Virus record (IMG/VR): IMGVR_UViG_3300005581_000134
Location: 1-23,854 of that record
Reading direction: 5' to 3' (one strand)
Length of the DNA stretch: 23,854 nucleotides
From: a virus
The notes under the pieces are model-generated. The model had not been told where the DNA came from and searched no databases. It saw only the letters and a list, made by a program, of their open reading frames with translations. A program made the translations under genes and the position numbers. Positions 2,296 to 18,907 of this stretch are shown one piece after another. Position 1 is the first letter of the stretch. Every line of letters begins with the position of its first letter.

Positions 2296-3318
2296 TTATG
2301 TATTTTTAATAGGTTTAGTTTTACCAATATCAAATAAAGTGCCTTGCACTGGCTTAGGTGGTTTACTAGGGGCTAATGGCTTAATAGAACTTTCAGGCCG
2401 CTTCTTCTTTAAAAATTTAAGCTGATCCCTATGCACAAAAACTTTAGCATCTTTATTGTTTAGTACAGTAAACATATTATCACCATCATATGTTTGTATA
2501 CGAGCTTTTCTCCCAAGATGCAGCACTTCCCTACCTTGCATAGAAAAGTCTGGATTGCGAGGAGTAAAAGCTTTAGAAACATTTCTTTTACTAGGAGCCA
2601 TATTAGTGGCCCTATGCCATATTAAATCTTGCGCAGACATACGATTTTCATCAAGATAAGTACTATCGTATTTAGCTTTTGTTGTTTCTCGCGCTGCTTT
2701 AATATCTTTATTAACCCTCAAATAACCTGGTAATCTTCTTTTTAGTTTTTGTCCTTCTTCTACTTGTGTTTGAAATCTTTCTCTAGGTCTATTTCTCATA
2801 GAAAAACTTTTTGGTATTTCAGAAACAAGTATTCGCCTCATGTTATCTGGCTTCATAGCAGCAGCTTTTTTACCAGCTGCATTAGCCCTTATTAAATTTG
2901 TTCTATAAACTCTACCTAAGCCAGTAACATTAGCGTTGGGCTTAATTTTTCCTAATTGAACACCTTTAACGTAAGAAGGCAGGCCCTTAGACACAGGATT
3001 ATTTTCAGAAGAGATAGAAGCAGCCTTCTTTTTAGCATCCGCCTTACTAGATGCTCCCCACGCCTGTAGCGACAGCAAGAGCCTTGTTGGCTCTCCATTA
3101 GGCTTACGCTCTGGACCTGGCATATTACCCATTCTAGCCAAGAAGGATGCTCTGCGAGGATTGTCGCCCCCCTTAACGGGTGCTTTGAGGTTCATCCCCT
3201 GTGCGCGTGCAGAAGCCCTGCCTTTGGCGTTTAATCCGCCCTTGGGGTTCTTGCCCTCGGACCGTTGCCACGCTGGGGTTTCAGCCTTAGAGATTTCTAC
3301 TCCGAATGCGTCAATCAT
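2296..3318 (-). CDS. Tagged basic protein with widespread phage domain of unknown function
   Basis: 340 aa. It begins with the short form of the shared leader, MIDAFGVEISKA (residues 1-12). Residues about 16-102 (WQRSEGKNPKGGLNAKGR, RRASFLARMGNM, LSLQAWGASSKADAKKKAA) match a small basic domain common in aquatic phage proteins. I believe this is the domain catalogued as DUF6321, but the accession is from memory. Core tag copies recur at 109-115 (VSKGLPS) and 246-250 (NVSKA), so the protein reads as leader, domain, tag, body, tag, body. The 3' arm of the gene is AT-rich like its neighbours, but hand counts of 60-base rows over 3061-3300 give about 57-58% GC against about 37% just upstream. That suggests the first domain was acquired. 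The start overlaps the previous stop as TAATG. Confidence 0.75.
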   Translation of the reverse strand: MIDAFGVEISKAETPAWQRSEGKNPKGGLNAKGRASARAQGMNLKAPVKGGDNPRRASFLARMGNMPGPERKPNGEPTRLLLSLQAWGASSKADAKKKAASISSENNPVSKGLPSYVKGVQLGKIKPNANVTGLGRVYRTNLIRANAAGKKAAAMKPDNMRRILVSEIPKSFSMRNRPRERFQTQVEEGQKLKRRLPGYLRVNKDIKAARETTKAKYDSTYLDENRMSAQDLIWHRATNMAPSKRNVSKAFTPRNPDFSMQGREVLHLGRKARIQTYDGDNMFTVLNNKDAKVFVHRDQLKFLKKKRPESSIKPLAPSKPPKPVQGTLFDIGKTKPIKNT

Positions 3319-3743
3319 TAGATTTTCTTAAACGGTCGTTTTTTAGCACGGACGAGCACCAATTTGCTTCCATTATTTTCACTTCGGTTTGCAGATATTT
3401 CAGCGGATCGTATTCTTCCTTCAAGATGTTGAGCCGTTCTTCTTTCTATGTCATTAGTAATCATTTTAGCGTCTTCTACTTTTCGAGTCGGATTTTTCAA
3501 AAACTTTAATTCTCTTGCGCGTATTTCAGGATATTTTTTAGTGTTCTGAGAAACTTTCTCGCCATATATTCTGGATATTGCTCTGTTATTTAACATTCCA
3601 TATCCTTGGCCTCTTGTGTCTGCGTAAACAAAAGGTTTTTTAATCACTTCTCTAGATCCAGGGGTAGCGTGAACAGCTTGTCTAATGTAAGAAGGCAACC
3701 CCTTAGAGATATCAGTACGTTCTACACCAAATGCGTCAATCAT
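3318..3743 (-). CDS. Tagged small basic protein
   Basis: 141 aa when started at the ATG at 3743, chosen because the shared leader MIDAFGVERTDISKGLPS begins exactly there. A longer frame from 3761 only adds residues overlapping the previous gene. After the tag the body (YIRQAVHATPGSREVIKK onward) is rich in Lys and Arg, with a likely helical stretch around DAKMITNDIERRTAQHLEGRIR. No enzyme motif or membrane segment is visible. The ATG overlaps the previous stop by 8 bases and the downstream gene starts at TAATG. I cannot assign a family to the body. Confidence 0.7.
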   Translation of the reverse strand: MIDAFGVERTDISKGLPSYIRQAVHATPGSREVIKKPFVYADTRGQGYGMLNNRAISRIYGEKVSQNTKKYPEIRARELKFLKNPTRKVEDAKMITNDIERRTAQHLEGRIRSAEISANRSENNGSKLVLVRAKKRPFKKI

Positions 3744-4050
3744 CCTTTTTAACCACACCATCTGGGATTACAGCAAAACGGCATACACCACCAGGCTCTA
3801 CGTCTAGTGCGATGATAGCGCAGTTCTTACCCCCGCGATACAGGGTACAGTTACTACACATAACGCCAATATTAGCGCAGTCATTCTCATCTGCTGAGAA
3901 ATACCCCGCCCATACACCAGTCTTGTCCATGTTGAACTTGCCATGCTTGGCTACTACGCCAAGGAGAGCGTCCTGCAGGGCCTTTTCTTCAGGCACAAGA
4001 TTCACGCTGTCATCAGCCTTAGAGATCTCAACTCCAAATGCGTCAATCAT
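3736..4050 (-). CDS. Tagged cysteine-rich protein (metal or Fe-S binding-like)
   Basis: 104 aa. It starts with the short leader variant MIDAFGVEISKA. The body is unlike its basic neighbours: acidic, with a cysteine pattern C-x6-C-x2-C-x8-C-x12-C (CANIGVMCSNCTLY, KNCAII, GGVCRF). This resembles the C-x2-C...C...C domains seen at the ends of some phage XkdF-like or prohead-associated proteins and in HiPIP-like small proteins, which suggests metal or Fe-S binding. One sampled 60-base row of the gene is about 55% GC, higher than the flanking genes. It shares both the leader variant and the raised GC with the 340-aa protein. Both ends are coupled (TAATG at the start, 8-base overlap at the end). 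Confidence 0.72.
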   Translation of the reverse strand: MIDAFGVEISKADDSVNLVPEEKALQDALLGVVAKHGKFNMDKTGVWAGYFSADENDCANIGVMCSNCTLYRGGKNCAIIALDVEPGGVCRFAVIPDGVVKKDD

Positions 4051-4382
4051 TAGATCGTCCTTGATTTAGGAAAAACATTAGTATCTGGTAATTTACGCGA
4101 AGGTCTAATTGTTTTCATGTTAGTGACTTTTCGAGCCATATTTGCTTCTTTATTATATTTAGAAGCCAAACCACGATTCGACATGTATGCGTTACTTAAA
4201 CCTTCTGGCTGCCCTTTACCAGTTCTAATAGCCTTAAAAGCTTTCTCAGACGCGTCATAATGCTGTCTAGCCTTTTTAGACGAAGACAAAGCTATCTCTC
4301 TAGAATTGATAATTCTCTTAGCTGCATAAGCTATCTTACCCTTAGAGATATCAGATCTCTCTACACCGAATGCGTCTATCAT
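4050..4382 (-). CDS. Tagged small basic protein
   Basis: 110 aa beginning MIDAFGVERSDISKG, the long form of the shared leader. The body is strongly basic (KIAYAAKRIINSREIALSSSKKARQHY and on) and probably helical, with no cysteine, membrane segment or enzymatic motif. Such composition fits a DNA-binding or capsid-internal protein. Its stop forms TAATG with the next tagged gene, and its start lies five bases after the previous stop. No family recognised. Confidence 0.68.
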   Translation of the reverse strand: MIDAFGVERSDISKGKIAYAAKRIINSREIALSSSKKARQHYDASEKAFKAIRTGKGQPEGLSNAYMSNRGLASKYNKEANMARKVTNMKTIRPSRKLPDTNVFPKSRTI

Positions 4383-4387
4383 TACAA

Positions 4388-4693
4388 TTATCTTCCTGTT
4401 AGCTGAGTAGAAACTGGGGCTTTACCCTTATAATTTCTAATTTTCTTGTTAGCATAAGTAGCTCCAGCTGTACCTACAACACCAGCACCTGCTGAAGCTG
4501 CACCAACCTTAACAGCTGTACGTGTAGCTCTACGCTCAAAGTCTTGCATAAGGCGGGCACCAGAATCTTCTACCTCTTTAGTTGCCCTACCAGTGGTCTC
4601 CCCTGCAATATTACCTAAATAGCGCGCAACCATACGTGGGCTTTTAAAACCCTTAGAAATATCTGCTCTCTCAACACCAAAAGCGTCTAACAT
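4388..4693 (-). CDS. Tagged small protein with Gly/Ala-rich helix
   Basis: 101 aa beginning MLDAFGVERADISKG. The body carries an amphipathic segment (residues about 20-60) and then a Gly/Ala-rich hydrophobic stretch, AVKVGAASAGAGVVGTAGA (about 59-77), ending in a basic tail. The hydrophobic stretch resembles those in the 285-, 186- and 396-aa neighbours and could be a membrane-active or packing helix. The start lies two bases after the previous stop. No family recognised. Confidence 0.68.
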   Translation of the reverse strand: MLDAFGVERADISKGFKSPRMVARYLGNIAGETTGRATKEVEDSGARLMQDFERRATRTAVKVGAASAGAGVVGTAGATYANKKIRNYKGKAPVSTQLTGR

Positions 4694-4695
4694 TA

Positions 4696-5553
4696 TTAAG
4701 ATCCTTTTCTAGCAGCTAATCTAGCTTGTAAAGCAGGATTTATTTTAGCTGCAGCAGGTGGGGCATTAAATTGTCCTTTAAAACCACCCATATCAGCATT
4801 TCTTAAAGCTCTAGTGTCAACCATCTGTCTAGTAGCAGGATCGGTGCCCATCCATTGTTCTCTTTGAAAACGAACCCTTTTTTGATCTCTGCCTTGTTTT
4901 ATAAAACCACCAGCTTGCCCTTGCCGATAGCCAGGGCTCCTAGTTCTCTGCATAGCCATCTGCTTAGATGCTTGCTTACCGCTCCAATTTGCACCTTGCA
5001 TTGTTCTACCTATTATATCTGCTCCAGGACCTGCTATTCGCTTGCCACCTCTCAAAGCAGAAGGAAGACCTTTAGAGACTTTACGCTTTTTGTTACTAAG
5101 TTTAAGTTGTTGGTTGCGTAGCTCGCCAACACCTTCACCAGCAACAGCACCACCATATGCCCCCAAAACTGGAGCATAAGTTCTAACCATCATATTTCCA
5201 ATGCCACTAGTTGAAAGTTTGTAACCCTTCCAAGATTTAACACCGCCTTTTGCTCCCTCTGGTGCATTACGAACAGCATTAATCGCGCCTCTAGCTTTGC
5301 TGCCACCTACCATTCTATTTACTTCCATAGAACCTTTTACTGCACCTCTAGCTCCACTAACGGCACCTCTAAATTTGCCACCGATAACTGGGGTTTGTGT
5401 AAAACCAGCTGCTATTCCTGCTGCTGCTCCTCCTAAAGCATATCTAGCTCTACGCTTTTCTTCTGCAGTAGGTGGTGCTTCTCTAACATAAGTAACGTTT
5501 TGCGTCTGCTTCTTAGAAATGTCTGTTCTCTCAACACCAAATGCGTCTAACAT
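4696..5553 (-). CDS. Tagged two-unit Gly/Ala-rich basic protein
   Basis: 285 aa from the ATG at 5553. This start leaves a GGGAG ribosome site seven bases upstream and gives the leader MLDAFGVERTDISKK in register with its paralogues; an ATG at 5556 is the alternative. Unit 1 (residues 16-157) has Gly/Ala-rich hydrophobic stretches (ALGGAAAGIAAGF and VLGAYGGAVAGEGVG). A second tag core, KVSKGLPSALRGG, appears at 158-170 and opens unit 2, which is rich in Arg, Gln and Gly (SKQMAMQRTRSPGYRQGQAG). The layout looks like two tagged cassettes fused in one frame. No known catalytic motif. Confidence 0.7.
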   Translation of the reverse strand: MLDAFGVERTDISKKQTQNVTYVREAPPTAEEKRRARYALGGAAAGIAAGFTQTPVIGGKFRGAVSGARGAVKGSMEVNRMVGGSKARGAINAVRNAPEGAKGGVKSWKGYKLSTSGIGNMMVRTYAPVLGAYGGAVAGEGVGELRNQQLKLSNKKRKVSKGLPSALRGGKRIAGPGADIIGRTMQGANWSGKQASKQMAMQRTRSPGYRQGQAGGFIKQGRDQKRVRFQREQWMGTDPATRQMVDTRALRNADMGGFKGQFNAPPAAAKINPALQARLAARKGS

Positions 5554-5555
5554 CA

Positions 5556-6116
5556 TCAAACTCCCTTTGGACCAAAGTAGCCACGGCTCATACCTGAAGC
5601 TATTCCTCTACCCATATTTTGACCTGCTTTAAGAGAAGACTTAGAGGTCTTAGGGTTCTTATTTAAATTAACTCTATTTAATCTAGCGTTAGTGGGGAAC
5701 ATTTTCCCGCCAGATGCAGCCTTACCACCAACAGGTATAGCTCTAGAACCAGGGATACTAGAAGTAATCATTCTAGCTAAATCAGCTCCAGATGCTTTAG
5801 CTACAGTGTGCTCAACACCAAAAGCAGACTTAGAAACTTTGGACTTAGGCTTTTGTTTTTTGTAATATCCAGCCTTTTGAGCATAATGAGTACCTACAGC
5901 ACCTCCTAGCACAGTTCCTGGTCCTGGTAAAGCTGAGCCTATAAACCCGCCAGCCAATTCTAACCCAGCAGCCTTTAACTTACGCTTATCTCCTTTTTCA
6001 CCAGCAATAGCTCCATGAAAACCTGGAAACAAACCTCCAGTTACATATCTACCAACTGAAGCTTTTGGCTCATCGCTACGCTTCTTGCTACTTGCTTTAG
6101 CAATGTATTCAGACAT
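5556..6116 (-). CDS. Basic Gly-rich protein with internal FGVEHT tag
   Basis: 186 aa. It starts MSEYIAKASSKKR, so an [IV]AK-type core lies at residues 4-8 rather than the MIDAFGVE leader. A Gly-rich region (about 22-80, AGLELAGGFIGSALPGPGTVLGGAVG) may be a glycine-zipper-like hydrophobic helix. An internal tag, KVSKSAFGVEHTVAKA, lies at 93-108. The C-terminal half is basic (NARLNRVNLNKNPKTSKSSLK). The TAATG start and TGATG end show tight coupling to both neighbours. I read it as a related cassette whose unit boundary is internal. Confidence 0.68.
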   Translation of the reverse strand: MSEYIAKASSKKRSDEPKASVGRYVTGGLFPGFHGAIAGEKGDKRKLKAAGLELAGGFIGSALPGPGTVLGGAVGTHYAQKAGYYKKQKPKSKVSKSAFGVEHTVAKASGADLARMITSSIPGSRAIPVGGKAASGGKMFPTNARLNRVNLNKNPKTSKSSLKAGQNMGRGIASGMSRGYFGPKGV

Positions 6117-7306
6117 TAAATGTTCCTCAATGGTCGGTTTCTAGCAGCTGGCTTAAGACGAGCTAGGTTCTCATTTGATATTTCTTTCAAATCAGCACCT
6201 ATTGGAGAGTAATTTCTACGTCTTCTACCTTCTGCATTAGCGCCAGCTCTAGTCAACAAATAATCTCCTTGTCGGCTACCATTAAGCTTAGCATTTTCAC
6301 CTTTATAGCGTCCTCGCGTTGGCCCATAATTAGTCAAGCCAGATTTATCACTATACATGTTTCTACCTGCAGCACCAGAAACTGTAGTATTAGCGGTAAC
6401 ATTCTTTTTAGTAGAGAACATTTTTCCTTTTACTCTAGAGTTAACTAGACTTGGGTAATCAGATTTAAGAGCTTTCATACCAGCTTTTTTGCCTTTTTCT
6501 CTATTCCCAGTTGCTGCTGTTCTTTGGGCAGCAATTTTATCTGCTCCCTTTATCGAATTTTTAAGATTAGATGGCAATCCTTTAGAAATATCAGTGTGTT
6601 CAACACCAAAAGCAGACTTAGCAACAGGGGCCATCTTGTTTCTATTCATCTTTCTAGCTGCAGCCATTTTGTCTCTTTTTCTGTACATAGGAGGCAATGA
6701 CGCACCAATACCTGCACCAAGAACACCTGCGCCTGCTATATCAGCAATATCACCTTGAGTGGTAGACAAACCCATACGGTCATACGCAGCTTGTTTTTTT
6801 GCAGAAAATTTAGCAGGAGCCATCTCTAAAGATTTTGCTTTTCTAGCAGCGCTAAAACCTTTAGGGAGCATGTTATAAGCTGATTTAGAAACCTTCATAT
6901 TTTTTCCTTTGTTTCTTTTGTATGCGGACGCATCAGACGCTAACATTCCAGCAGCACCTAAACCGGCTAAACCAAGACCAGTAGCTCTAGCCTTAGAACT
7001 AACTGATCTAAAAGCTTTTAAACCACCTTCGATATTATTTACACTTTTAGCTGTAGCTGGAGAAAAGTTTTTTGGATCTTTGCCAGCTATCATGTTATCT
7101 AATCTTTTTTGGCTACTTTTAACGTATTTAATTCCGCGATTACCTCTACCAGCTAAACTAACACCAGCGCCAATACCTGTAGCTGCACCTAGCTGAGCAG
7201 CTATGTCTGTCTTAGTGTATGGGCCTACAGAGTTCTTCTTAGTGCTTCCCTTAGAAACATTGTAGATAGCATCCAAATACTCAGTCTCTTCATCAAATTC
7301 TGACAC
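6116..7306 (-). CDS. Multi-unit basic protein with internal FGVEHTDISKG tag
   Basis: 396 aa from a GTG at 7306, chosen because GGAG lies six bases upstream. The longer frame from a TTG at 7333 has no well-placed ribosome site. Tag cores divide the chain: NVSKG at 16-20, KVSKSAYNMLPKG at 138-150, VAKSAFGVEHTDISKGLPS at 228-246. The pieces between hold Gly/Ala-rich hydrophobic stretches (AAQLGAATGIGAGVSLAG, GLGLAGLGAAGMLA, IAGAGVLGAGIGASLPP) and Lys/Arg-rich stretches. It looks like three or four tagged cassettes fused in one frame. It is the first gene of the tagged block and follows the lysis genes after an 80-base gap. No enzymatic motif seen. Confidence 0.7.
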   Translation of the reverse strand: MSEFDEETEYLDAIYNVSKGSTKKNSVGPYTKTDIAAQLGAATGIGAGVSLAGRGNRGIKYVKSSQKRLDNMIAGKDPKNFSPATAKSVNNIEGGLKAFRSVSSKARATGLGLAGLGAAGMLASDASAYKRNKGKNMKVSKSAYNMLPKGFSAARKAKSLEMAPAKFSAKKQAAYDRMGLSTTQGDIADIAGAGVLGAGIGASLPPMYRKRDKMAAARKMNRNKMAPVAKSAFGVEHTDISKGLPSNLKNSIKGADKIAAQRTAATGNREKGKKAGMKALKSDYPSLVNSRVKGKMFSTKKNVTANTTVSGAAGRNMYSDKSGLTNYGPTRGRYKGENAKLNGSRQGDYLLTRAGANAEGRRRRNYSPIGADLKEISNENLARLKPAARNRPLRNI

Positions 7307-7386
7307 GTGGTTCTCCAAATTTGTGATGTGCAACAGATGTATGCACCTTCAATGTCTTACTAAAAGAATATCTACACCCGCAACTA

Positions 7387-8562: not shown

Positions 8563-9219
8563 TTAGGTGGCTGCGGGCCATGTTCCTATATTTGTTTGCA
8601 ATGTGGGCCATGCTAACACATTTAAAGTTTGGCGATATACACTACCAGTGGAAGTGTAGTACCCAGCTATAGATGAGTTTGTTTCTAATTTGATAGATAC
8701 ACCAGTATTAGCAGGAATTATATCTGTAGCCATTAATGACACACTATTGTTTGGCTCTCCCGTTCCATTATTGGTCATAGACGCACCAGAAGGAAGTTGT
8801 GCGTAGTTATATGTTCTATATGAGGAATCAGAGCCATAAGCCATAGTTGCTAAAGTAAACGTTACAGCACCAGTAAACACAAAGTCGCAGTTCCAGCTAG
8901 CTTGTATGATCCAGTTACCAGAAAGAAACGGTGCTGTGAAGGGATAACTCCATCTTTTAACGTTAGTGGCTGTGGTCCATGAAAACGCTGTTGGGTTTAC
9001 TCTGAACGCTACAGGTCGTTGATTTTTGTCTACATATGCTTTATTAGCTGCATGTCCAGATACGGTAGGAGCAGGCACACTTATAGCACCCGTTGCTGTT
9101 CCACCAGTTTTTAGCAGAGCGTAAGAGTTAACGTCGTCAGCTAAATTTTTAATATCTCTGGGTATATCAGGTGTGTCACCACCTACAGGGTATCTAAACC
9201 CGCCTGCATTACTAGCCAT
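8563..9219 (-). CDS. Tail fibre / minor tail protein
   Basis: 218 aa with a consensus AGGAGG ribosome site. The N-terminus (FRYPVGGDTPDIPRDIKNLADDVNSYALLKTGGTATGAI) is typical of phage fibre proteins that carry repeats of the form LLKTGGT..G.. followed by HAANKAYVDKN. The C-terminal 140 residues are Thr/Ser/Asn/Tyr-rich and beta-predicted, probably the distal receptor-binding domain. It is the last of a run of fibre genes before the lysis genes. Host target unknown. Confidence 0.75.
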   Translation of the reverse strand: MASNAGGFRYPVGGDTPDIPRDIKNLADDVNSYALLKTGGTATGAISVPAPTVSGHAANKAYVDKNQRPVAFRVNPTAFSWTTATNVKRWSYPFTAPFLSGNWIIQASWNCDFVFTGAVTFTLATMAYGSDSSYRTYNYAQLPSGASMTNNGTGEPNNSVSLMATDIIPANTGVSIKLETNSSIAGYYTSTGSVYRQTLNVLAWPTLQTNIGTWPAAT

Positions 9220-9335
9220 TGTTCCTCCTGTGGTTATACCCTACCATAACATGCTTGATAAGTATCTTGTATGTATTAATATTACTCGCCTTATATTACT
9301 ATTAGGGTTTAGTTAACTTTACACTTACATATACC
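9220..9335 (-). other. AT-rich intergenic gap between fibre genes
   Basis: These 116 bases hold no supportable ORF on either strand. On the minus strand they end with AGGAGG before the 218-aa fibre gene. A loose promoter-like pair (GTTAAC, 16 bases, TATAAG) is present but too weak to call. A 5-bp inverted repeat (GTTAT/ATAAC, 8-base loop) lies near 9233-9250. Confidence 0.4.
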
Positions 9336-10052
9336 TTATTGGAATTCATATGTGCAAGAAATAATAATTTGGTCTCCATTTGACCATGTAAACGGTTGAG
9401 TAGGTCTTATAGTCTGGTTTGTATAAACTAATAAATAATTCTGATTAGAAGCAGCTACAGATACTCCAGTGTAATATGTAGAGGCGCTAGAGTCGTACAT
9501 TCTAGCTGTACCAGTGGATTCTATACTTGAATTTCTTACGATCCCATAACTCATCTCGGTGCTGGCAGGTAGGCTAAACTGATAAGTCCCGCTCCCACCT
9601 GAAAAACCAGAACTTCCTGTTGTAAATTCAATATCTACGTGTACAGTTTTACTACCAAGTATTTTATATCTACCTTGGGCTAAAGCACCAGTTCCTAAAG
9701 TAGGGTTTGTAATGGATGCGGTCCATTGAGGGGTGTAATTAGTCCAAGACCGTACTGTTTCGTAAGTAGATAAAGTCCCGCCGTTAATCGCGGCAGAGTG
9801 ATTGTGTTGTGCGTAATAAAAGCCAGTTGAAGAAATAAGGGGTGTTGTTAACTGTGGTGCATCAAAAACCCCACTTGCAACAGTAGGAGCAATAATTGTT
9901 GGCGTAGTTATAGTTTTATTAGTTAATGTCTCTATCCCATCTTTGGTGGCAGCTCCATCAAATGGCTGTGAGGGCTGTGTTACAGGTTTTTGGCTTACTC
10001 GTAGATGATATTCCCCAATTGGAATATCAGGATCTACAGTACTTCCCGCCAT
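9336..10052 (-). CDS. Tail fibre protein
   Basis: 238 aa with AGGAG upstream of ATG. The N-terminal 20 residues contain IPIGEYHLRVSQKP, and the next part reads DGIETLTNKTITTPTIIAPTV, the 'LTNKTIT.P.I' stalk repeat common in phage tail fibre and structural proteins. A HNHSAAINGGTLS stretch then leads into a beta-rich Ser/Thr/Gly C-terminal domain of about 130 residues. Neighbours on both sides are fibre proteins. Probably a host-binding fibre; the receptor is unknown. Confidence 0.75.
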   Translation of the reverse strand: MAGSTVDPDIPIGEYHLRVSQKPVTQPSQPFDGAATKDGIETLTNKTITTPTIIAPTVASGVFDAPQLTTPLISSTGFYYAQHNHSAAINGGTLSTYETVRSWTNYTPQWTASITNPTLGTGALAQGRYKILGSKTVHVDIEFTTGSSGFSGGSGTYQFSLPASTEMSYGIVRNSSIESTGTARMYDSSASTYYTGVSVAASNQNYLLVYTNQTIRPTQPFTWSNGDQIIISCTYEFQ

Positions 10053-10060
10053 TTTATCTC

Positions 10061-11068
10061 CTAAGAGGTGGTCTTAAGACTTGTGTACGAAGGATAACCA
10101 TAGTATGCAGTTACTGTAACACCGGCACCTGAAGCAGGTGTGGTAATGGTAGTGCCAGCAGCTGAAGTGTATGTAAACGACGTTGTAGTGGGAACTGTGA
10201 GAATATAAGCACTCTCGTTGTTTCCTGAAGGTGTGGTAATACCACTCAAGGAAATAGCCATACCCACAGATAATCCATGAGCAGCAGCAAAGTTAGCTGT
10301 TTTAGTAGTAGTACCAGTAATTGAAGTAGTTGTTCTAGTTAGAGTTGCGCCAGATGCTCCAGTGTTTCCAATAGCTCCAGTGGCTCCAGTTGCGCCTTTT
10401 AAGTTTCCTCTAGAAGTCCAAGTGGTTGAACCAGTTTTTTCATAATAATCGCCATTTGTATTATTTACATAATAATTACCAACAGACCCAGTACCGCTAG
10501 ATGGAGCGCCTGATCCATTAAGCCAAACTGCATCTCCCTTTGGCCCACTACCTATTTTAGACGCTCTAACTTCAATACCAGTTATTGTTCCATTACCTTG
10601 AGAGTTTAGATAAAAAAACGTTAAAACATCGCCAGCGGTTAAATAGAATAACCCTGCAACGTTTTGATAAGTAGAAACAGTTGCCACTGAAGCATTTTTG
10701 TACCAAGATCGCTCAAGGGTTCCGTTCTTTTTCATTGTTAATATTCTATATCCCGAACCTGAAGCGGTTGGGTTCCATATAGCTTTTAAAGTAATTAGAT
10801 AAGACCCAGTAGATGCTACGGTCAAAGAACCAGTTCCAGTCCAAACTAATTCGTTAGTACTATTAGTTAGCGTGATGCCCTGTTCTGTTGCAGCAGATAC
10901 TGTAACTGTAGAGGCAGTCCAAACGTTTTTATAGTCGCTGATAGAACCAGCAGGACCCGCAATTCCTTGGTTTCCTTGAACTCCTTGTGGCCCTTGGCTA
11001 CCTTGAACTCCTGCTGGACCTGCTGGTCCTAATCCAGTTAAAGATCTAGATCTAATAATTATCGCCAT
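10061..11068 (-). CDS. Collagen-like tail fibre protein
   Basis: 335 aa with AAGGA upstream of ATG. Residues about 12-41 are Gly-X-Y triplets (GPAGPAGVQGSQGPQG and on), which form a collagen-like triple helix in phage fibres. A beta domain of about 130 residues follows, then the module NGDYYEKTGSTTWTSRGNLKG, a second collagen-like patch (GATGATGAIGNTGASGA) and a Thr-rich C-terminus. The NGDYYEKTG module nearly repeats in the fibre at 1-1554, evidence of shuffling between fibre genes. Role: tail stalk and host recognition. Confidence 0.8.
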   Translation of the reverse strand: MAIIIRSRSLTGLGPAGPAGVQGSQGPQGVQGNQGIAGPAGSISDYKNVWTASTVTVSAATEQGITLTNSTNELVWTGTGSLTVASTGSYLITLKAIWNPTASGSGYRILTMKKNGTLERSWYKNASVATVSTYQNVAGLFYLTAGDVLTFFYLNSQGNGTITGIEVRASKIGSGPKGDAVWLNGSGAPSSGTGSVGNYYVNNTNGDYYEKTGSTTWTSRGNLKGATGATGAIGNTGASGATLTRTTTSITGTTTKTANFAAAHGLSVGMAISLSGITTPSGNNESAYILTVPTTTSFTYTSAAGTTITTPASGAGVTVTAYYGYPSYTSLKTTS

Positions 11069-11077
11069 AATTTATCC

Positions 11078-11812
11078 TTATTGATAAGCTGAGAAACCAT
11101 ATATTGTATTGTATGAAGCTCTTCCGAGAACTGATGCGCCAGTAGGTCCTGTTGCACCTTGACTACCCGCATCACCAGTTGGAAATGTTGGTAAACCTGG
11201 ATCATCACCAGAAACTCCAGAAGCTCCCATAACCATCACACTAACGCTACAATTTAAATTTTCAATTCCTATATAGGCATAAGTTGCATCTGTAAGAGTG
11301 GATGTTATTTCAAAAGTTGAGTCAACAGTTGGAGTGTAATGAAAATTAACATCAGCATGTGCTGCAACATCAGGTGCTAAATATTCTGCTGTTGAAGACC
11401 AGCTTTCATTGGTAGTTATATTGTTTATAGAATAATACTGGTCCCCATCAGAAAGACCTATAAAATAAGAATTAATGAAATATGTATATCCCTTTTTTAA
11501 GGTAAACTGAGTACTATTTTTATATATACCTAAAAAATCTATTTCTGCACCAAGTTCTAGTGTTTTTACAGCTTCGGTTCCAATGTTTTGTCCAGTATTT
11601 GAAACTCTAAGCGTAGACATGGCTCCACTTGCCCAAGATGTAGGCAAATAACCAGTAGAACCATCAGGTCCAACAACACCCGTGGTCCCAATGTCTCCAC
11701 GTAATCCTTTTGGGCCAGTAGCGCCAGTTAATCCAGCTGATGTGGCTAACCCTTCAAAAAATAGGATTGAACCACCATCATCTAAACGATATTTAACTTC
11801 TATGGAACTCAT
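11078..11812 (-). CDS. Collagen-like tail fibre protein
   Basis: 244 aa. After a short N-terminal strand region come Gly-X-Y triplets at about 26-54 (GLTGATGPKGLRGDIGTTG), a beta-rich domain of about 140 residues, and a second collagen-like patch near the C-terminus (GDAGSQGATGPTGA). The start overlaps the preceding adaptor gene as ATGA, so the two are made together. Likely a short trimeric fibre mounted on that adaptor. Confidence 0.78.
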   Translation of the reverse strand: MSSIEVKYRLDDGGSILFFEGLATSAGLTGATGPKGLRGDIGTTGVVGPDGSTGYLPTSWASGAMSTLRVSNTGQNIGTEAVKTLELGAEIDFLGIYKNSTQFTLKKGYTYFINSYFIGLSDGDQYYSINNITTNESWSSTAEYLAPDVAAHADVNFHYTPTVDSTFEITSTLTDATYAYIGIENLNCSVSVMVMGASGVSGDDPGLPTFPTGDAGSQGATGPTGASVLGRASYNTIYGFSAYQ

Positions 11813-12213
11813 GGTACAACCGTTACGCTATCATTTACTATAAATTTACCTTGAATAACTTTAGTTATTTTAACGCTATTTACTGTTCCATTTGAGTTTA
11901 GATAATTGTACGATACAAACAAATCGTATACATAACTACCAGCAGTTAAAGCCAAAGTTTGGGCTGCTGTTAAAGTTATTTGTATAAAACCAGTAGTTCC
12001 GCTAACTTGAATACCTGTATCAATCCAAGTAGATAATACACCTGTCGTTTTTAATTTTAGAGTTGTCGTACCGCTACCAATGGAAGGTTTCACCATCATG
12101 TAGGCAGGATTAACCACAGGAAATGGATTGTCGCTAGAATCTAACCAATAAAACTGGGAGACATAATCTTCGCCTTTTTGTATTGTTAGATCTATATTAG
12201 CTGGGACGCTCAT
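11809..12213 (-). CDS. Small tail/baseplate adaptor-like protein
   Basis: 134 aa with AGGAG five bases before ATG. The opening NIDLTIQKGEDYVSQFYWLDSSDNPF matches a common phage structural module (IDLTI..G..F...F.W.D..G.P..L), which usually precedes collagen-like fibre genes and resembles the N-terminal part of BppU-type baseplate proteins. The rest is beta-rich. Its ATGA overlap with the collagen-like fibre gene supports an attachment or adaptor role. It is the first gene after an 11-bp hairpin. Confidence 0.7.
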   Translation of the reverse strand: MSVPANIDLTIQKGEDYVSQFYWLDSSDNPFPVVNPAYMMVKPSIGSGTTTLKLKTTGVLSTWIDTGIQVSGTTGFIQITLTAAQTLALTAGSYVYDLFVSYNYLNSNGTVNSVKITKVIQGKFIVNDSVTVVP

Positions 12214-12288: not shown

Positions 12289-12720
12289 CTACGCTTCTAA
12301 TTCTTCTGTAGCAACCTGTTTTAAAGATTTAACGTACTCTTCAGTGTCTCCCATTACTATCAATGTTCGCATTCCATCATTGGTATTTGTGGGCACATCA
12401 AGTTGTAATAGCTTGGCTCTGTGTCCCATTATTTTTAATACAGTGTCCACTGCTCTTAAATCACCAGCCATTGCTTGGTCCCACGCTATGACATTTAACG
12501 AATCTAATCTATCTAACTCAAGTTGTAATGCTTCTCTACGCCACTCTTCGCTTTGTGATAACGCTGAACGTTGTAGATAAGTATTTACTGCAGTCATCGC
12601 ACTATCAGCAGAAGAATATCCATTGTCTTCTGCTATTTGTTCCCATGAGGCTCCAGATTGCCTTTGTTTGTAAGCATGGTAAGCATTTGATCCTTCTGGA
12701 ATAACTTCTATTTCTTTCAT
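12289..12720 (-). CDS. Possible terminase small subunit
   Basis: 143 aa. An N-terminal helix-turn-helix-like region (about residues 17-46, YKQRQSGASWEQIAEDNGYSS) is followed by helices reading EEWRREALQLELDRLD and MAGDLRAVDTVLKIMGHRAKL. This is the layout of small terminase or packaging-recognition proteins in many actinophages, where an E/L-rich helix precedes 'GD..AVD..LKI...RA.L.GLD'. That role is binding phage DNA at packaging initiation. No large terminase is in this window, so context is neutral. The start overlaps the WhiB gene stop as ATGA. Confidence 0.6.
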   Translation of the reverse strand: MKEIEVIPEGSNAYHAYKQRQSGASWEQIAEDNGYSSADSAMTAVNTYLQRSALSQSEEWRREALQLELDRLDSLNVIAWDQAMAGDLRAVDTVLKIMGHRAKLLQLDVPTNTNDGMRTLIVMGDTEEYVKSLKQVATEELEA

Positions 12721-13238
12721 TTTGCACCGTACTTATAAGATAATCCGTGTATGTAGTCTTCTGCTATTTTTTCTGGCTTAGTTCCATTATCTATGAAGTT
12801 AAAAAGATTCATTCTTTCATTCGCAGTTATTCCTCCCCAAATTCCATACTCTTCTCTGAAATTCAAAGAGGCCACTATACAATCTTTTCTTACTACGCAC
12901 AGCCTGCATATTTCTTTTGCTAGTCTTATTCGAGATGGAGTCATGGATGGATTTTCAGGAGTGCCATCCCCACCAAAAAATATATCATCATTCATATCTA
13001 AACAGGAAGCATTTATGTGCCAGCTAGGAAATAAACTAGCAAAAATATTATGCCGTACTTCTTCTGTCTCTTCTATTTCAGGATCTTCAATATCTGACCA
13101 AGACCATATGTGATCGTCTACATTAACCCAACTCTGCTCATTATAAACAAACCAAACATTATCGGCTATATGCTCTTCATATATTGGTTTATTCTTATCA
13201 GGATATGAGTTTCCCGTATAAGGCGATACATGTGGCAT
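12717..13238 (-). CDS. WhiB-family Fe-S transcription factor
   Basis: 173 aa. The four cluster cysteines are Cys79, Cys111, Cys114 and Cys120 (ICRLCVVRKDC), followed by the G[IV]WGG turn at 132-136 (YGIWGGITANER). Together they define the WhiB family, which binds a 4Fe-4S cluster and acts with the actinobacterial sigma factor. The approximately 75-residue N-terminal extension (acidic and Trp-rich, IWSWSDIEDPEIEETEE) is longer than in typical phage WhiB proteins of about 80-130 aa. The start has GACAGGA upstream and overlaps the resolvase gene by 41 bases. Probable job: redirecting host transcription. WhiB is restricted to Actinobacteria and their phages. Confidence 0.92.
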   Translation of the reverse strand: MPHVSPYTGNSYPDKNKPIYEEHIADNVWFVYNEQSWVNVDDHIWSWSDIEDPEIEETEEVRHNIFASLFPSWHINASCLDMNDDIFFGGDGTPENPSMTPSRIRLAKEICRLCVVRKDCIVASLNFREEYGIWGGITANERMNLFNFIDNGTKPEKIAEDYIHGLSYKYGAK

Positions 13239-16004: not shown

Positions 16005-16284
16005 AATGCCTTCTCAGGTAGTGGTTAGTTCCTTGGTATACGACTTTTCCATTTTCTTTAGTCACATATCCATCTATCAGAAGACCAGCTTCATATGCTT
16101 GTCCTCCATCGCTCCATGCGTGGTGTTCTCTGCATAGATTAATCTTGTGGTAGGTCTCACCAATCTCATCTAAAATTGCGCCACCACGAGCCCTAGTAAG
16201 CATGTGATGGGATTCAGTAGGTTGCTTCCAACATCTGCACCAAACTTCATTAACCCACAGCATTGCTTCGCATCCATCACTCAT
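15991..16284 (-). CDS. HNH endonuclease-like protein
   Basis: 97 aa when started at the ATG at 16284. GAAGGG lies seven bases upstream of this ATG, while the longer frame from 16326 overlaps the polymerase by 50 bases. The motifs are Cys16/Cys18 (WCRCW), ESHHMLTRARGG (His26-His27), then INLCREHHAWSD (Cys51, His54-His55). This is an HNH fold of about 50 residues. Phages often carry such small HNH proteins, some acting in packaging and some as homing enzymes. The first helix is less typical, and activity is unproven. Confidence 0.75.
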   Translation of the reverse strand: MSDGCEAMLWVNEVWCRCWKQPTESHHMLTRARGGAILDEIGETYHKINLCREHHAWSDGGQAYEAGLLIDGYVTKENGKVVYQGTNHYLRRHYGQS

Positions 16285-18907
16285 CTGATAACCCTTCAAA
16301 TGCCCTATTTTCATAGAGCTTCCCAAAAGTTCCTACTTCCATATCTCCAGTCTCTAAATATGGTTTAGTACCAGATACTTTGGTAAGTCTGGCAAACTGC
16401 TTGGTGCTTTCATAACCATCTTCTGGTCTAGCAGCAACAATCTTTTTTGCCGAAGCAGGGCCAAGACCTTTGATAGATCTCAAACCTTTTCTTATGTACT
16501 TACCATTTTTAGAGATGGTGTAGCTTTCATTAGATTCGTTTACATGAGCTATTTTGATCTTGATATTACGTGCTCTAGTAGCAGATACGTAGTTATCTTC
16601 TTTTGGAGAGCCAGATGAAACATCAAGCAAAGCAGTGTGAAATTCAACTGGGTAATGAACCATTAGATATGCGCATCTGTAAGCGGTCACTCCGTAAGCC
16701 ATTGAGTGGGCTTTGTTGAAACCATAAGCAGCGAATCCTGTAGCCGATTCCCATATGAACTCGTAATCATCAGAATTGAATCCATAATCATCGCATAGTT
16801 GCTTGATCTGTCGCTCAAATCCCTGAATAACATCTCCAGCTCCACCAATATTAGAGTTTGAAGCCTTAACTGCCTTCAGAAACTTAGTTAAATCAGCTGC
16901 CTCTAGCCCTATCTCTCTAAGTACGGAGATAACTTGCTCCTGGAACAAGAAGATTCCTTGAGTATCATTGGTCGTAGCCATAAGGAACTCATGTCTCTGA
17001 GGTATTTTTGTCTTCTTGGCTCTTCTAGACAAATACGTTTCCGTAGCGCCAGAGTTCATGGTTGCTGGTCTAAATAAAGCCATAGCGTCCACAACATCGC
17101 GTAGTTTAGTGGGCTTCAGCTTAGATATTTCACGCTTGGTAGTCCAGCCCTCTAATTGGAAAACACCGTCAGTATCACCTTTAGATATAGCCGTAAACGT
17201 TTTACTATCATTTAGAGGAATCCAATCTAAACCTTCGCTGAAATCTCTTCCTAGCATCTTAATAGTCTTGTTAATCACAGTTAAGGTTTTAGATCCTAAA
17301 ACATCAAGCTTAACCATTCCAAAGTCTTCAATATCGTCCATTGGATACTGAGTAACCATTGTTTCGCTGCTTGCTACCCACATAGTTGGAATCAACTTGT
17401 CAAATTCCGATTTAGTAGTAGTCACCACTAAGCCAGCAGCATGAGTTCCATAAGAAGAAATTGCGTTGTTATCGGCAAGCTTAAATAACGCGTTCTTTTC
17501 TTCAGAAGGTATTTGATTCCATTCCTGCAGAACAGCACCCTGTCTACGCTTAGACGCGTAATACCTGACTCTAATAGATCCCTTGCCACTTTCATCATCC
17601 CCTGTTAAAGAATGGGTAAGCCAGGTGCCAATTTGAGTGACAGCAAATCTTTCTGATAGCCAAGCAATTAACTTATCACGCTGTTCGTGTTCTACGTCTA
17701 GGTCCACATCTGGTGGTTTAGTTCTGTCTTTAGAGATAAATCTTTCAAAGGATAAGCCATACTTAATTGGATCTACTTGAGTGATCTTCAACAACCAGCA
17801 CACTAACGAACCAGAAGCAGATCCACGAGTAGTAGTGTAAACAGTGTTGTTAGCGCACCAGTCAGTAACTTCAGCAACTAAATTTAGATAACCAGCCATT
17901 CTAGTGTGCTCAATTACTTCCAATTCTTCTTGTAAACGCTGTTGATAAGCAGGCTTAAGAAGATCTCTTTTTTCCAATTCTAGGTAGCAACGGTCGCTAA
18001 TTTCCTTTAGAGGATCTTCCACAGTGAAAGGAATATTGTAAGAGTACGAATCCAGCTCTTTAATTTGCAGCGTGTGAGAATCAAGCAAATCAGATAAACC
18101 TTCAGTTCCTGCTGAAAGTCTTCTTTCGTTGTGGTGATCAACAAACCATTCGGTGTCTGCTAGATGGAACCCATCTCCTGGGAACACAGCATCTTCTGAG
18201 TCGCTACCATAAGCAACTAAGCGCTTCAATGTTTCATGGACCACTTTGTCGTGCTGGTCGCAGTAATGGCTATCTTGAGTAAGGATAGTTGGAATGCCCA
18301 ATTCAGTGGCTAAATCTAATAAAATATCTGCTACAGAATCGTCAGTTAGTCCGTTACCATGATCAATATTGTGGTTCTGTAGCTCAACGTAAAACTTATC
18401 TCCAAACCATTTAGCGTAGGAGCACAGGATGCTCTTAGCACGATCCATATCTCCGGTTGCTATAGCTTGGACTACAAAGCCGAAATAACAGCCTGAAGTG
18501 CCTGCTATGCCCTTTAAAAGACCTTGTGAGCTTAGTTCTGCTAAGTCGTGCATATCCAACAAAGGCTTATTGTAGAAATTGACGTTAGACATACTACTTA
18601 GATTACAAAGGTTGTTATAGCCCTCAGTGCTGTAAGCAACTACACACATATGGTGTCTTTTGGCCTTTTTGTCCTCTCGGCTATTAACTATATAAAGTTC
18701 CGAGCCAGGGAAGGGCAAAATACCTGCTTGCTTGCAGGCTTTATACAACTGAGCAGATCCAGCCATGTTCCCGTGGTCTGTTAGACCAAGAGCAGGCTGA
18801 CCATAACCAACGACTGTGTTTACCATGTCTTGAACACGTGGCAAAGCGTCGTTTGCGCTGAACTGACTGTGGGAATGAAGATTCCAGATCTTCTTTTTGA
18901 TAATCAC
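16277..18907 (-). CDS. dnaE: DnaE-type DNA polymerase III alpha subunit
   Basis: 876 aa from GTG at 18907. This is the only possible start: an in-frame TAG lies four codons upstream and the PHP motif HSHS is at residues 11-14. The PHP domain keeps metal-ligand-like residues (HSHS, LTDHGN, HHMCVV, QDSHY), so it may have proofreading activity as in actinobacterial DnaE1. The palm carries PDVDLD (Asp400, Asp402) and KLDVLG (Asp535); YGFNKAHS marks the fingers. The chain ends soon after the helix-hairpin-helix GLGPASAKKI, so the OB fold and the tau-binding tail of host DnaE (about 1160 aa) are absent. With the neighbouring helicase, primase and SSB it forms a phage replisome. No Shine-Dalgarno is present; the start follows a tRNA-like 3' end. 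Confidence 0.95.
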   Translation of the reverse strand: MIIKKKIWNLHSHSQFSANDALPRVQDMVNTVVGYGQPALGLTDHGNMAGSAQLYKACKQAGILPFPGSELYIVNSREDKKAKRHHMCVVAYSTEGYNNLCNLSSMSNVNFYNKPLLDMHDLAELSSQGLLKGIAGTSGCYFGFVVQAIATGDMDRAKSILCSYAKWFGDKFYVELQNHNIDHGNGLTDDSVADILLDLATELGIPTILTQDSHYCDQHDKVVHETLKRLVAYGSDSEDAVFPGDGFHLADTEWFVDHHNERRLSAGTEGLSDLLDSHTLQIKELDSYSYNIPFTVEDPLKEISDRCYLELEKRDLLKPAYQQRLQEELEVIEHTRMAGYLNLVAEVTDWCANNTVYTTTRGSASGSLVCWLLKITQVDPIKYGLSFERFISKDRTKPPDVDLDVEHEQRDKLIAWLSERFAVTQIGTWLTHSLTGDDESGKGSIRVRYYASKRRQGAVLQEWNQIPSEEKNALFKLADNNAISSYGTHAAGLVVTTTKSEFDKLIPTMWVASSETMVTQYPMDDIEDFGMVKLDVLGSKTLTVINKTIKMLGRDFSEGLDWIPLNDSKTFTAISKGDTDGVFQLEGWTTKREISKLKPTKLRDVVDAMALFRPATMNSGATETYLSRRAKKTKIPQRHEFLMATTNDTQGIFLFQEQVISVLREIGLEAADLTKFLKAVKASNSNIGGAGDVIQGFERQIKQLCDDYGFNSDDYEFIWESATGFAAYGFNKAHSMAYGVTAYRCAYLMVHYPVEFHTALLDVSSGSPKEDNYVSATRARNIKIKIAHVNESNESYTISKNGKYIRKGLRSIKGLGPASAKKIVAARPEDGYESTKQFARLTKVSGTKPYLETGDMEVGTFGKLYENRAFEGLSDE

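Follow-up and report, generated by a model that had tools for sequence, protein, structure and literature searches.

A portable peptide in front of unrelated phage proteins: a candidate head-loading signal in uncultured actinophages

What would lead six adjacent phage genes, with otherwise dissimilar products, to open with the same short peptide? The question is raised by a 23,854-base fragment from IMG/VR (record IMGVR_UViG_3300005581_000134; the whole of it is the window hereafter), in which the minus-strand region 7333-2296 is a tight run of eight genes, six of them beginning with a tag of 11 to 14 amino acids. An earlier note on this DNA had likened the tag to the leader that sends the internal proteins of phage T4 into the capsid, and had seen the bodies behind it as candidate injected effectors. 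We consider it fairly probable that the peptide is a portable head-loading signal, trimmed by a prohead protease of the XkdF type, some of the bodies perhaps being ejected. If this is true, the tag makes the list of head cargo readable from sequence in a widespread group of uncultured actinophages, so that the long-open question of which phage proteins ride in the head becomes testable from sequence. Dozens of unknown protein families would become candidate internal or injected proteins, including DUF6321, common to hundreds of marine and freshwater phages. Heads of the XkdF/MuF type would have a short loading signal comparable to that of T4, which would suggest that such signals arose more than once.

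One peptide, many bodies

The tag-bearing open reading frames (ORFs) start at 5553 (MLDAFGVERTDISKK), 4693 (MLDAFGVERADISKG), 4382 (MIDAFGVERSDISKG), 4050 (MIDAFGVEISKAD), 3743 (MIDAFGVERTDISKG) and 3318 (MIDAFGVEISKAE), all on the minus strand; the coordinates that the earlier note gave for six genes opening with M[IL]DAFGVE..ISK were confirmed. Over tag residues 2-9, all 15 pairs of the six are identical at six or more of the eight positions, as against none of the 1275 pairs formed by the remaining ORFs of 60 amino acids or more. Behind the tag the likeness stops, as had been claimed: BLASTP alignments of the full-length proteins cover essentially the tag alone (8-26 amino acids), and no pair of tag-stripped bodies was found at E 0.05. 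Two details of the earlier description have to be narrowed. The N-terminal position holds for the six genes, and not for the internal copies in two further genes of the run; of the bodies said to be basic or Cys-rich, five have an isoelectric point (pI) of 10.6-11.6, while Cys-rich fits the 104-residue body only. The run is made up as follows.

6116..7333, minus strand: 405-residue gene; the tag is internal (KSAFGVEHTDISKG, AFG at 6613), and VSKG (7258) and VSKS (6892) stand isolated
5556..6116, minus strand: 186-residue gene starting MSEYIAKASS, with internal tag KSAFGVEHTVAK at 5796-5831 (KSAFGVEHTVAKA, at 5825)
5512..5553, minus strand: N-terminal tag MLDAFGVERTDISK of a 285-residue basic, Gly/Ala-rich protein (4696-5553)
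4696..5511, minus strand: body of the 285-residue protein, pI 11.6, 30% Gly and Ala, second isolated motif VSKGLPS at 5079
4652..4693, minus strand: N-terminal tag MLDAFGVERADISK of a 101-residue protein (4388-4693)
4388..4651, minus strand: body of the 101-residue protein, pI 10.8, with a Gly/Ala-rich hydrophobic stretch
4341..4382, minus strand: N-terminal tag MIDAFGVERSDISK of a 110-residue protein (4050-4382)
4050..4340, minus strand: body of the 110-residue protein, pI 10.8
4018..4050, minus strand: N-terminal short-form tag MIDAFGVEISK of a 104-residue protein (3736-4050)
3736..4017, minus strand: body of the 104-residue protein, acidic (pI 4.6), five Cys
3702..3743, minus strand: N-terminal tag MIDAFGVERTDISK of a 141-residue protein (3318-3743)
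3318..3701, minus strand: body of the 141-residue protein, pI 10.6
3286..3318, minus strand: N-terminal short-form tag MIDAFGVEISK of a 340-residue protein (2296-3318)
3058..3255, minus strand: DUF6321 domain (PF19846, Pfam E 3e-19), directly after the tag of the 340-residue protein
2296..3057, minus strand: remainder of the 340-residue protein, with isolated VSKGLPS (2994) and VSKA (2580)

Both internal copies read KSAFGVEHT. The 186-residue gene belongs to a Gly-rich family whose members in other phages carry the tag at the N-terminus (for example L056 11049-11381; L and G numbers are our handles for other viral loci and genomes), and the 405-residue protein shares an RPLRNI C-terminus with tagged proteins of L024 (5395-5772, 5772-6080). 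The isolated VSKGLPS and VSKA of the 340-residue protein may mark segment borders within it.

The same N-terminal peptide was found, by DNA patterns for AFGV[ED]...[VI]SK, in dozens of further IMG/VR viral contigs. In this way 138 distinct N-terminally tagged proteins were gathered. Comparison of their bodies at E 1e-3 gave 69 clusters; Gly/Ala-rich low complexity has probably swollen the largest of them (35 members). The tag thus stays fixed while the bodies vary, which upholds the claim of a portable tag. Each of the four codons for Ala, for Gly and for Val is in use in the tag core, and selection therefore acts on the peptide rather than on the DNA; a conserved DNA element, be it a recombination site or a regulatory repeat, was rejected on the same ground. 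Comparison of the window with its relative G015 illustrates how fast the bodies change, the replication genes being 33-59% identical while the tagged proteins align over 14-31 residues only. Within one genome the tag variants resemble each other more than they do those of other genomes (difference 0.173, against a permutation maximum of 0.093), as expected if the tags of each genome fit one partner. A pattern search of 85,462 bacterial and archaeal genomes gave scattered, chance-like single-ORF matches; the motif is absent from the nearest cultured relatives by head genes, and in the literature searched we found no earlier account of AFGVE-type tags or of DUF6321, nor, by keyword, of capsid-targeting motifs in siphophages.

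Two of the bodies are known elsewhere without the tag. The DUF6321 body of the 340-residue protein is 80% identical to a 102-residue protein that Pelagibacter phage EXVC031P Hodr encodes without the tag; the start of that protein, MAYK-TPAWQR, lines up with MIDAFGVEISKAE-TPAWQR in the window. The untagged phage DUF6321 proteins that we examined start M(A)K-TPAWQR or MAYK-TPAWQR, that is, at the tag/body junction, and among 79 homologues in viral contigs AFG is upstream in none, while 72 are short ORFs starting at the junction. Since these homologues begin where the tag ends, the tag is an added leader. The 104-residue body, for its part, is homologous (60% identity, E 1e-29) to the domain at the C-terminus of a protein of the metagenome-assembled Actinomycetia phage DSL-LC01; the gene for that protein carries the annotation capsid maturation protease and sits just upstream of that for the major capsid protein (MCP). 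Tagged copies of this body occur in L309 and L181 and in G032, whose tagged 104-residue protein is 97% identical to that of the window, and in L310-L312 the same domain forms the end of a large head protein.

DUF6321, a domain of unknown function, is itself extremely conserved: viral contigs hold 599 or more relatives, and the 80 best of these show 73-92% identity. It is present in 492 INPHARED records, mainly cyanophages and pelagiphages. In Methylophilales phage MEP402 its gene lies three genes from the terminase. A structure model of the domain is mainly helical (predicted local distance difference test, pLDDT, 81; predicted template modelling score, pTM, 0.53) and gave no significant match against PDB structures.

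The head module and the two elements of the tag

Where, then, do tagged genes belong? No head genes were found in the window, and the head context is taken from its relatives. G032, a close relative, and G004 both carry MuF and XkdF, and G004, a tagged phage whose head module is complete, also has the scaffold and MCP. In G009, MuF comes first, followed by XkdF protease (Peptidase_S78_2), a 502-residue gene, a scaffold-like gene and MCP (phrog_1005, E 1e-88); behind these come tagged genes, with another gene, of 174 residues, among them. This module recurs near tags in many contigs. PF14550 (XkdF, Peptidase_S78_2) was found in five of the first 20 records; most of the long contigs contain homologues of XkdF. 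Eight contigs measuring 54 kb or more hold 48 tags, and 27 of these are no farther than 4 kb from MuF, XkdF, scaffold or MCP, where 21% were expected (P 6.5e-8). The tag is even found inside a Mu-type portal protein (L157) and inside a 1086-residue XkdF polyprotein (L020). In a sample fetched by MCP similarity alone, and so not chosen by the tag, 45 of 78 loci carry it, with 152 forward occurrences of the motif and a single reversed one. That tagged genes belong to the head module in related phages is supported by these observations.

The bodies are strongly basic: their median pI is 11.15 and 98% are above 9, against 5.3 for untagged ORFs of four related contigs (P 9e-39). One tagged family recurs in L007 (4903-5667), L094 (2625-3248), L140 (6775-7554) and L179 (2739-3518); its L007 member has an HExxH-like stretch, HEASHA...REEARAD, that resembles a zinc metallopeptidase, and the family has no Pfam match. 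A PDB sequence search with this family and with the 340-residue protein found no relatives, and the body of the 285-residue protein had no significant match in Pfam or PHROG. In one close relative of the window, an untagged Dps-like gene (L316 2352-2786) is embedded among the tagged genes of the run.

The tag resolves into two elements. The first is AFG[VI], then [ED], then usually H, R or D; the second is [VI]SK, and in 72% of tags the residue after it is A, G or S. In N-terminal tags the second element stands behind the first. C-terminal tags have a Lys before the core, as in the terminal VSKSAFGVDHE of a gene lying between protease and scaffold, and internal tags have one on both sides. In a hand count, 33 of the 34 genuine internal or C-terminal copies had a Lys no more than six residues upstream (P 5e-13 against body composition). 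In all three placements, a Lys separates the core from the body. The second element also occurs by itself: lone [VI]SK is found 48 times in 20 XkdF proteins (7.2 expected) and 32 times in 19 scaffolds (1.9 expected), an excess absent from MCP (2, with 2.8 expected), from MuF (4, with 4.2 expected) and likewise from the 174-residue protein.

This arrangement fits a protease site in the second element and a docking peptide, specific to the clade, in the first. As to the specificity, the HK97 protease cuts at K103/S104, Lys before Ser (PMC10275583), and by analogy XkdF might also cut after Lys. Cleavage of the T4 or phiKZ type, after GVE, was set aside: the Glu of the tag is replaced by Asp in 58 of the 138 proteins, and C-terminal copies need a cut upstream.

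Proposed mechanism, known systems and rival explanations

The sequence of events that we propose is as follows. The AFG[VI][ED][HR] core would attach the protein to a part of the prohead under assembly, for which the scaffold and the XkdF-type protease are the probable candidates. This protease (S78_2) would then cut after the Lys of [VI]SK-[AGS], so that the body, now mature and in most cases very basic, would be freed within the head and packed together with DNA. Some of the bodies may be ejected along with it. A portal and an XkdF polyprotein, both tagged, look like assembly or structural proteins, and the injected effectors of the earlier note can therefore be true for some at most.

Among known systems, T4 comes closest. 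Its internal proteins are basic, with N-terminal targeting propeptides of 10-19 residues and divergent mature regions (PMC9026906). The leader of its proteins IPI-III and the present tag have in common their length (10-19 and 11-14 residues), a shared front on small, basic, fast-changing and unrelated bodies (one acidic body in the window apart) and the presence of a prohead protease encoded by the phage. They differ in sequence; in the protease, which is gp21 in T4, cutting at a site that ends in Glu, and Peptidase_S78_2/XkdF here, with a proposed cut after Lys; and in the internal and C-terminal copies, the MuF/XkdF-type actinophage head and the far larger number of cargo families found here. 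The best-supported reading is that the tag would act like the T4 targeting sequence, with another protease and another cleavage site; the likeness drawn by the earlier note thus stands as an analogy and falls as a statement about sequence type.

Other systems share part of the picture. In the giant phage SPN3US (gp245), several ejection or head proteins have N-terminal propeptides that the prohead protease removes; these are of 20-254 residues, are cut after AXE and are not described as one shared portable tag (PMC10052503). HK97 gp4 offers processing by a prohead protease; here it is an XkdF-type protease gene that lies in the head module with the tags, G032 included. In HK97, however, a scaffold domain (delta) is cut from the capsid protein and there is no cargo tag. 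Encapsulin cargo-loading peptides are short, portable, N- or C-terminal, and bring unrelated proteins to a shell of the HK97 fold (PMC11190991). Encapsulins differ in being bacterial nanocompartments that have no DNA packaging, protease or cleavage site, with peptides of unrelated sequence, whereas the shell of the window's relatives is a phage MCP beside MuF and protease genes.

Encapsulins nevertheless inspire a rather unlikely alternative, in which the tag has a docking function and nothing more: AFG[VI][ED]H-x-ISK would be a single binding peptide, never cut, its Lys being a binding residue. The function of encapsulin peptides at either terminus speaks for it, while the solitary [VI]SK, enriched in scaffold and protease even in a sister clade without AFG, and its position on the body-facing side of the core, speak against it. 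A slightly less probable view makes the tagged proteins accessories of the assembly core or scaffold, bound by their tag to scaffold and protease, which would shape the prohead and then be degraded or line the head, never to be injected. Tags in the portal, in the XkdF polyprotein and at the C-terminal end of the product encoded between protease and scaffold would all suit such a role, as would the peak of [VI]SK enrichment in the scaffold and the low-complexity, Gly/Ala-rich bodies. Yet the extreme turnover of bodies among related phages resembles that of cargo, DUF6321 was acquired from a wider phage pool as cargo rather than core parts would be, and typical scaffolds are acidic while these bodies are strongly basic.

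That the tag docks to something outside the head (tail, host membrane, DNA or a lysis complex), some bodies being perhaps membrane proteins, appears quite improbable. The window locus does adjoin lysis and tail-fibre-like genes, and glycine-zipper stretches (G...G...G) are found in 39% of bodies against 6% of controls; strong membrane-like hydrophobicity (Kyte-Doolittle 1.6) is, however, rarer in bodies (2%) than in controls (17%), most tags of long contigs are among head genes, and portal and protease proteins are tagged. Least credible of all, and rejected here, is a recent duplication with fast-diverging bodies, named beforehand as the finding that would undo the proposal, which would make the shared N-terminus leftover homology. 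Adjacent genes are a common outcome of tandem duplication. Against this stand the dissimilar bodies of the window, the 69 clusters overall, the homologues of bodies in unrelated phages (the untagged DUF6321 proteins that start at the junction) or in tagless head proteins, and the very existence of internal and C-terminal copies.

Several observations weigh against head loading as we propose it. About 44% of tags in long contigs are beyond the 4-kb head zones, and the tag locus of the window itself lies between lysis and tail-fibre-like genes; a second tag locus is, however, present in relatives such as G020, G023 and G033 too. Pfam places XkdF (S78_2) and HK97 gp4 in different families. Known domains are rare among the bodies, most of which are devoid of recognisable function. 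The tag peptide and several tagged proteins have no match in INPHARED, where no cultured carrier was found. Apart from the sample fetched by MCP similarity, loci were chosen mostly by the tag motif, and ORFs were called mechanically in G+C-rich contigs. Finally, 33 of the 78 MCP-selected loci lack the AFG core by regular expression, which missed tag variants in two of them (L322, L328); the core is therefore not essential for this head type.

Other leaders, and the rest of the window

Some small proteins encoded in these AFG-less loci carry leaders of their own. The scaffolds of the loci are still enriched in [VI]SK (32, with 2.3 expected), and sister phages with the same MCP family and no AFG have small proteins with leaders such as MENDYLVSKALR, MEKDYLISKAQR and MELVELGR[VI]AK, where a different front part is followed by the same [VI][SA]K element.

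L332 4542, L341 7118, L374 4152, L355 11335, L392 4082: proteins of sister phages with other leaders

Docking motifs other than AFGV[ED]H apparently exist in sister clades and in unrelated phages. One may go further and imagine a general, modular code for head cargo, combining a clade-specific docking peptide with a constant [VI]SK site, at the N-terminus, the C-terminus or between domains, by which any gene could be enlisted and its product delivered to the host; we hold this wider idea tentatively, as conceivable rather than probable.

A different phage may provide a parallel case. At L299 1422-4050 (the same as L314 11392-14020, IMGVR_UViG_3300009152_000184), three consecutive genes adjacent to the terminase encode a Dps-like protein, a DUF6321 protein and a 413-residue protein, all of which have another motif, VR[IV]K[ST]xMR, at their N-terminus or close to it. 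This motif has three occurrences in this 25.7-kb contig and none in the reversed control, and is possibly an independent tag on overlapping cargo.

Outside the tagged run, the window has the following genes to offer.

12717..13238, minus strand: WhiB-family regulator (PF02467, E 3e-16)
16277..18907, minus strand: gene like that for DNA polymerase III alpha, with a 59% identical counterpart in G004

The WhiB regulator points to an actinobacterial host, in agreement with the actinophage that the earlier note had presumed. Collagen-like genes with GxxG repeats and tail-fibre-like genes, at 1-1554 and 8563-12213, flank the lysis and tag region.

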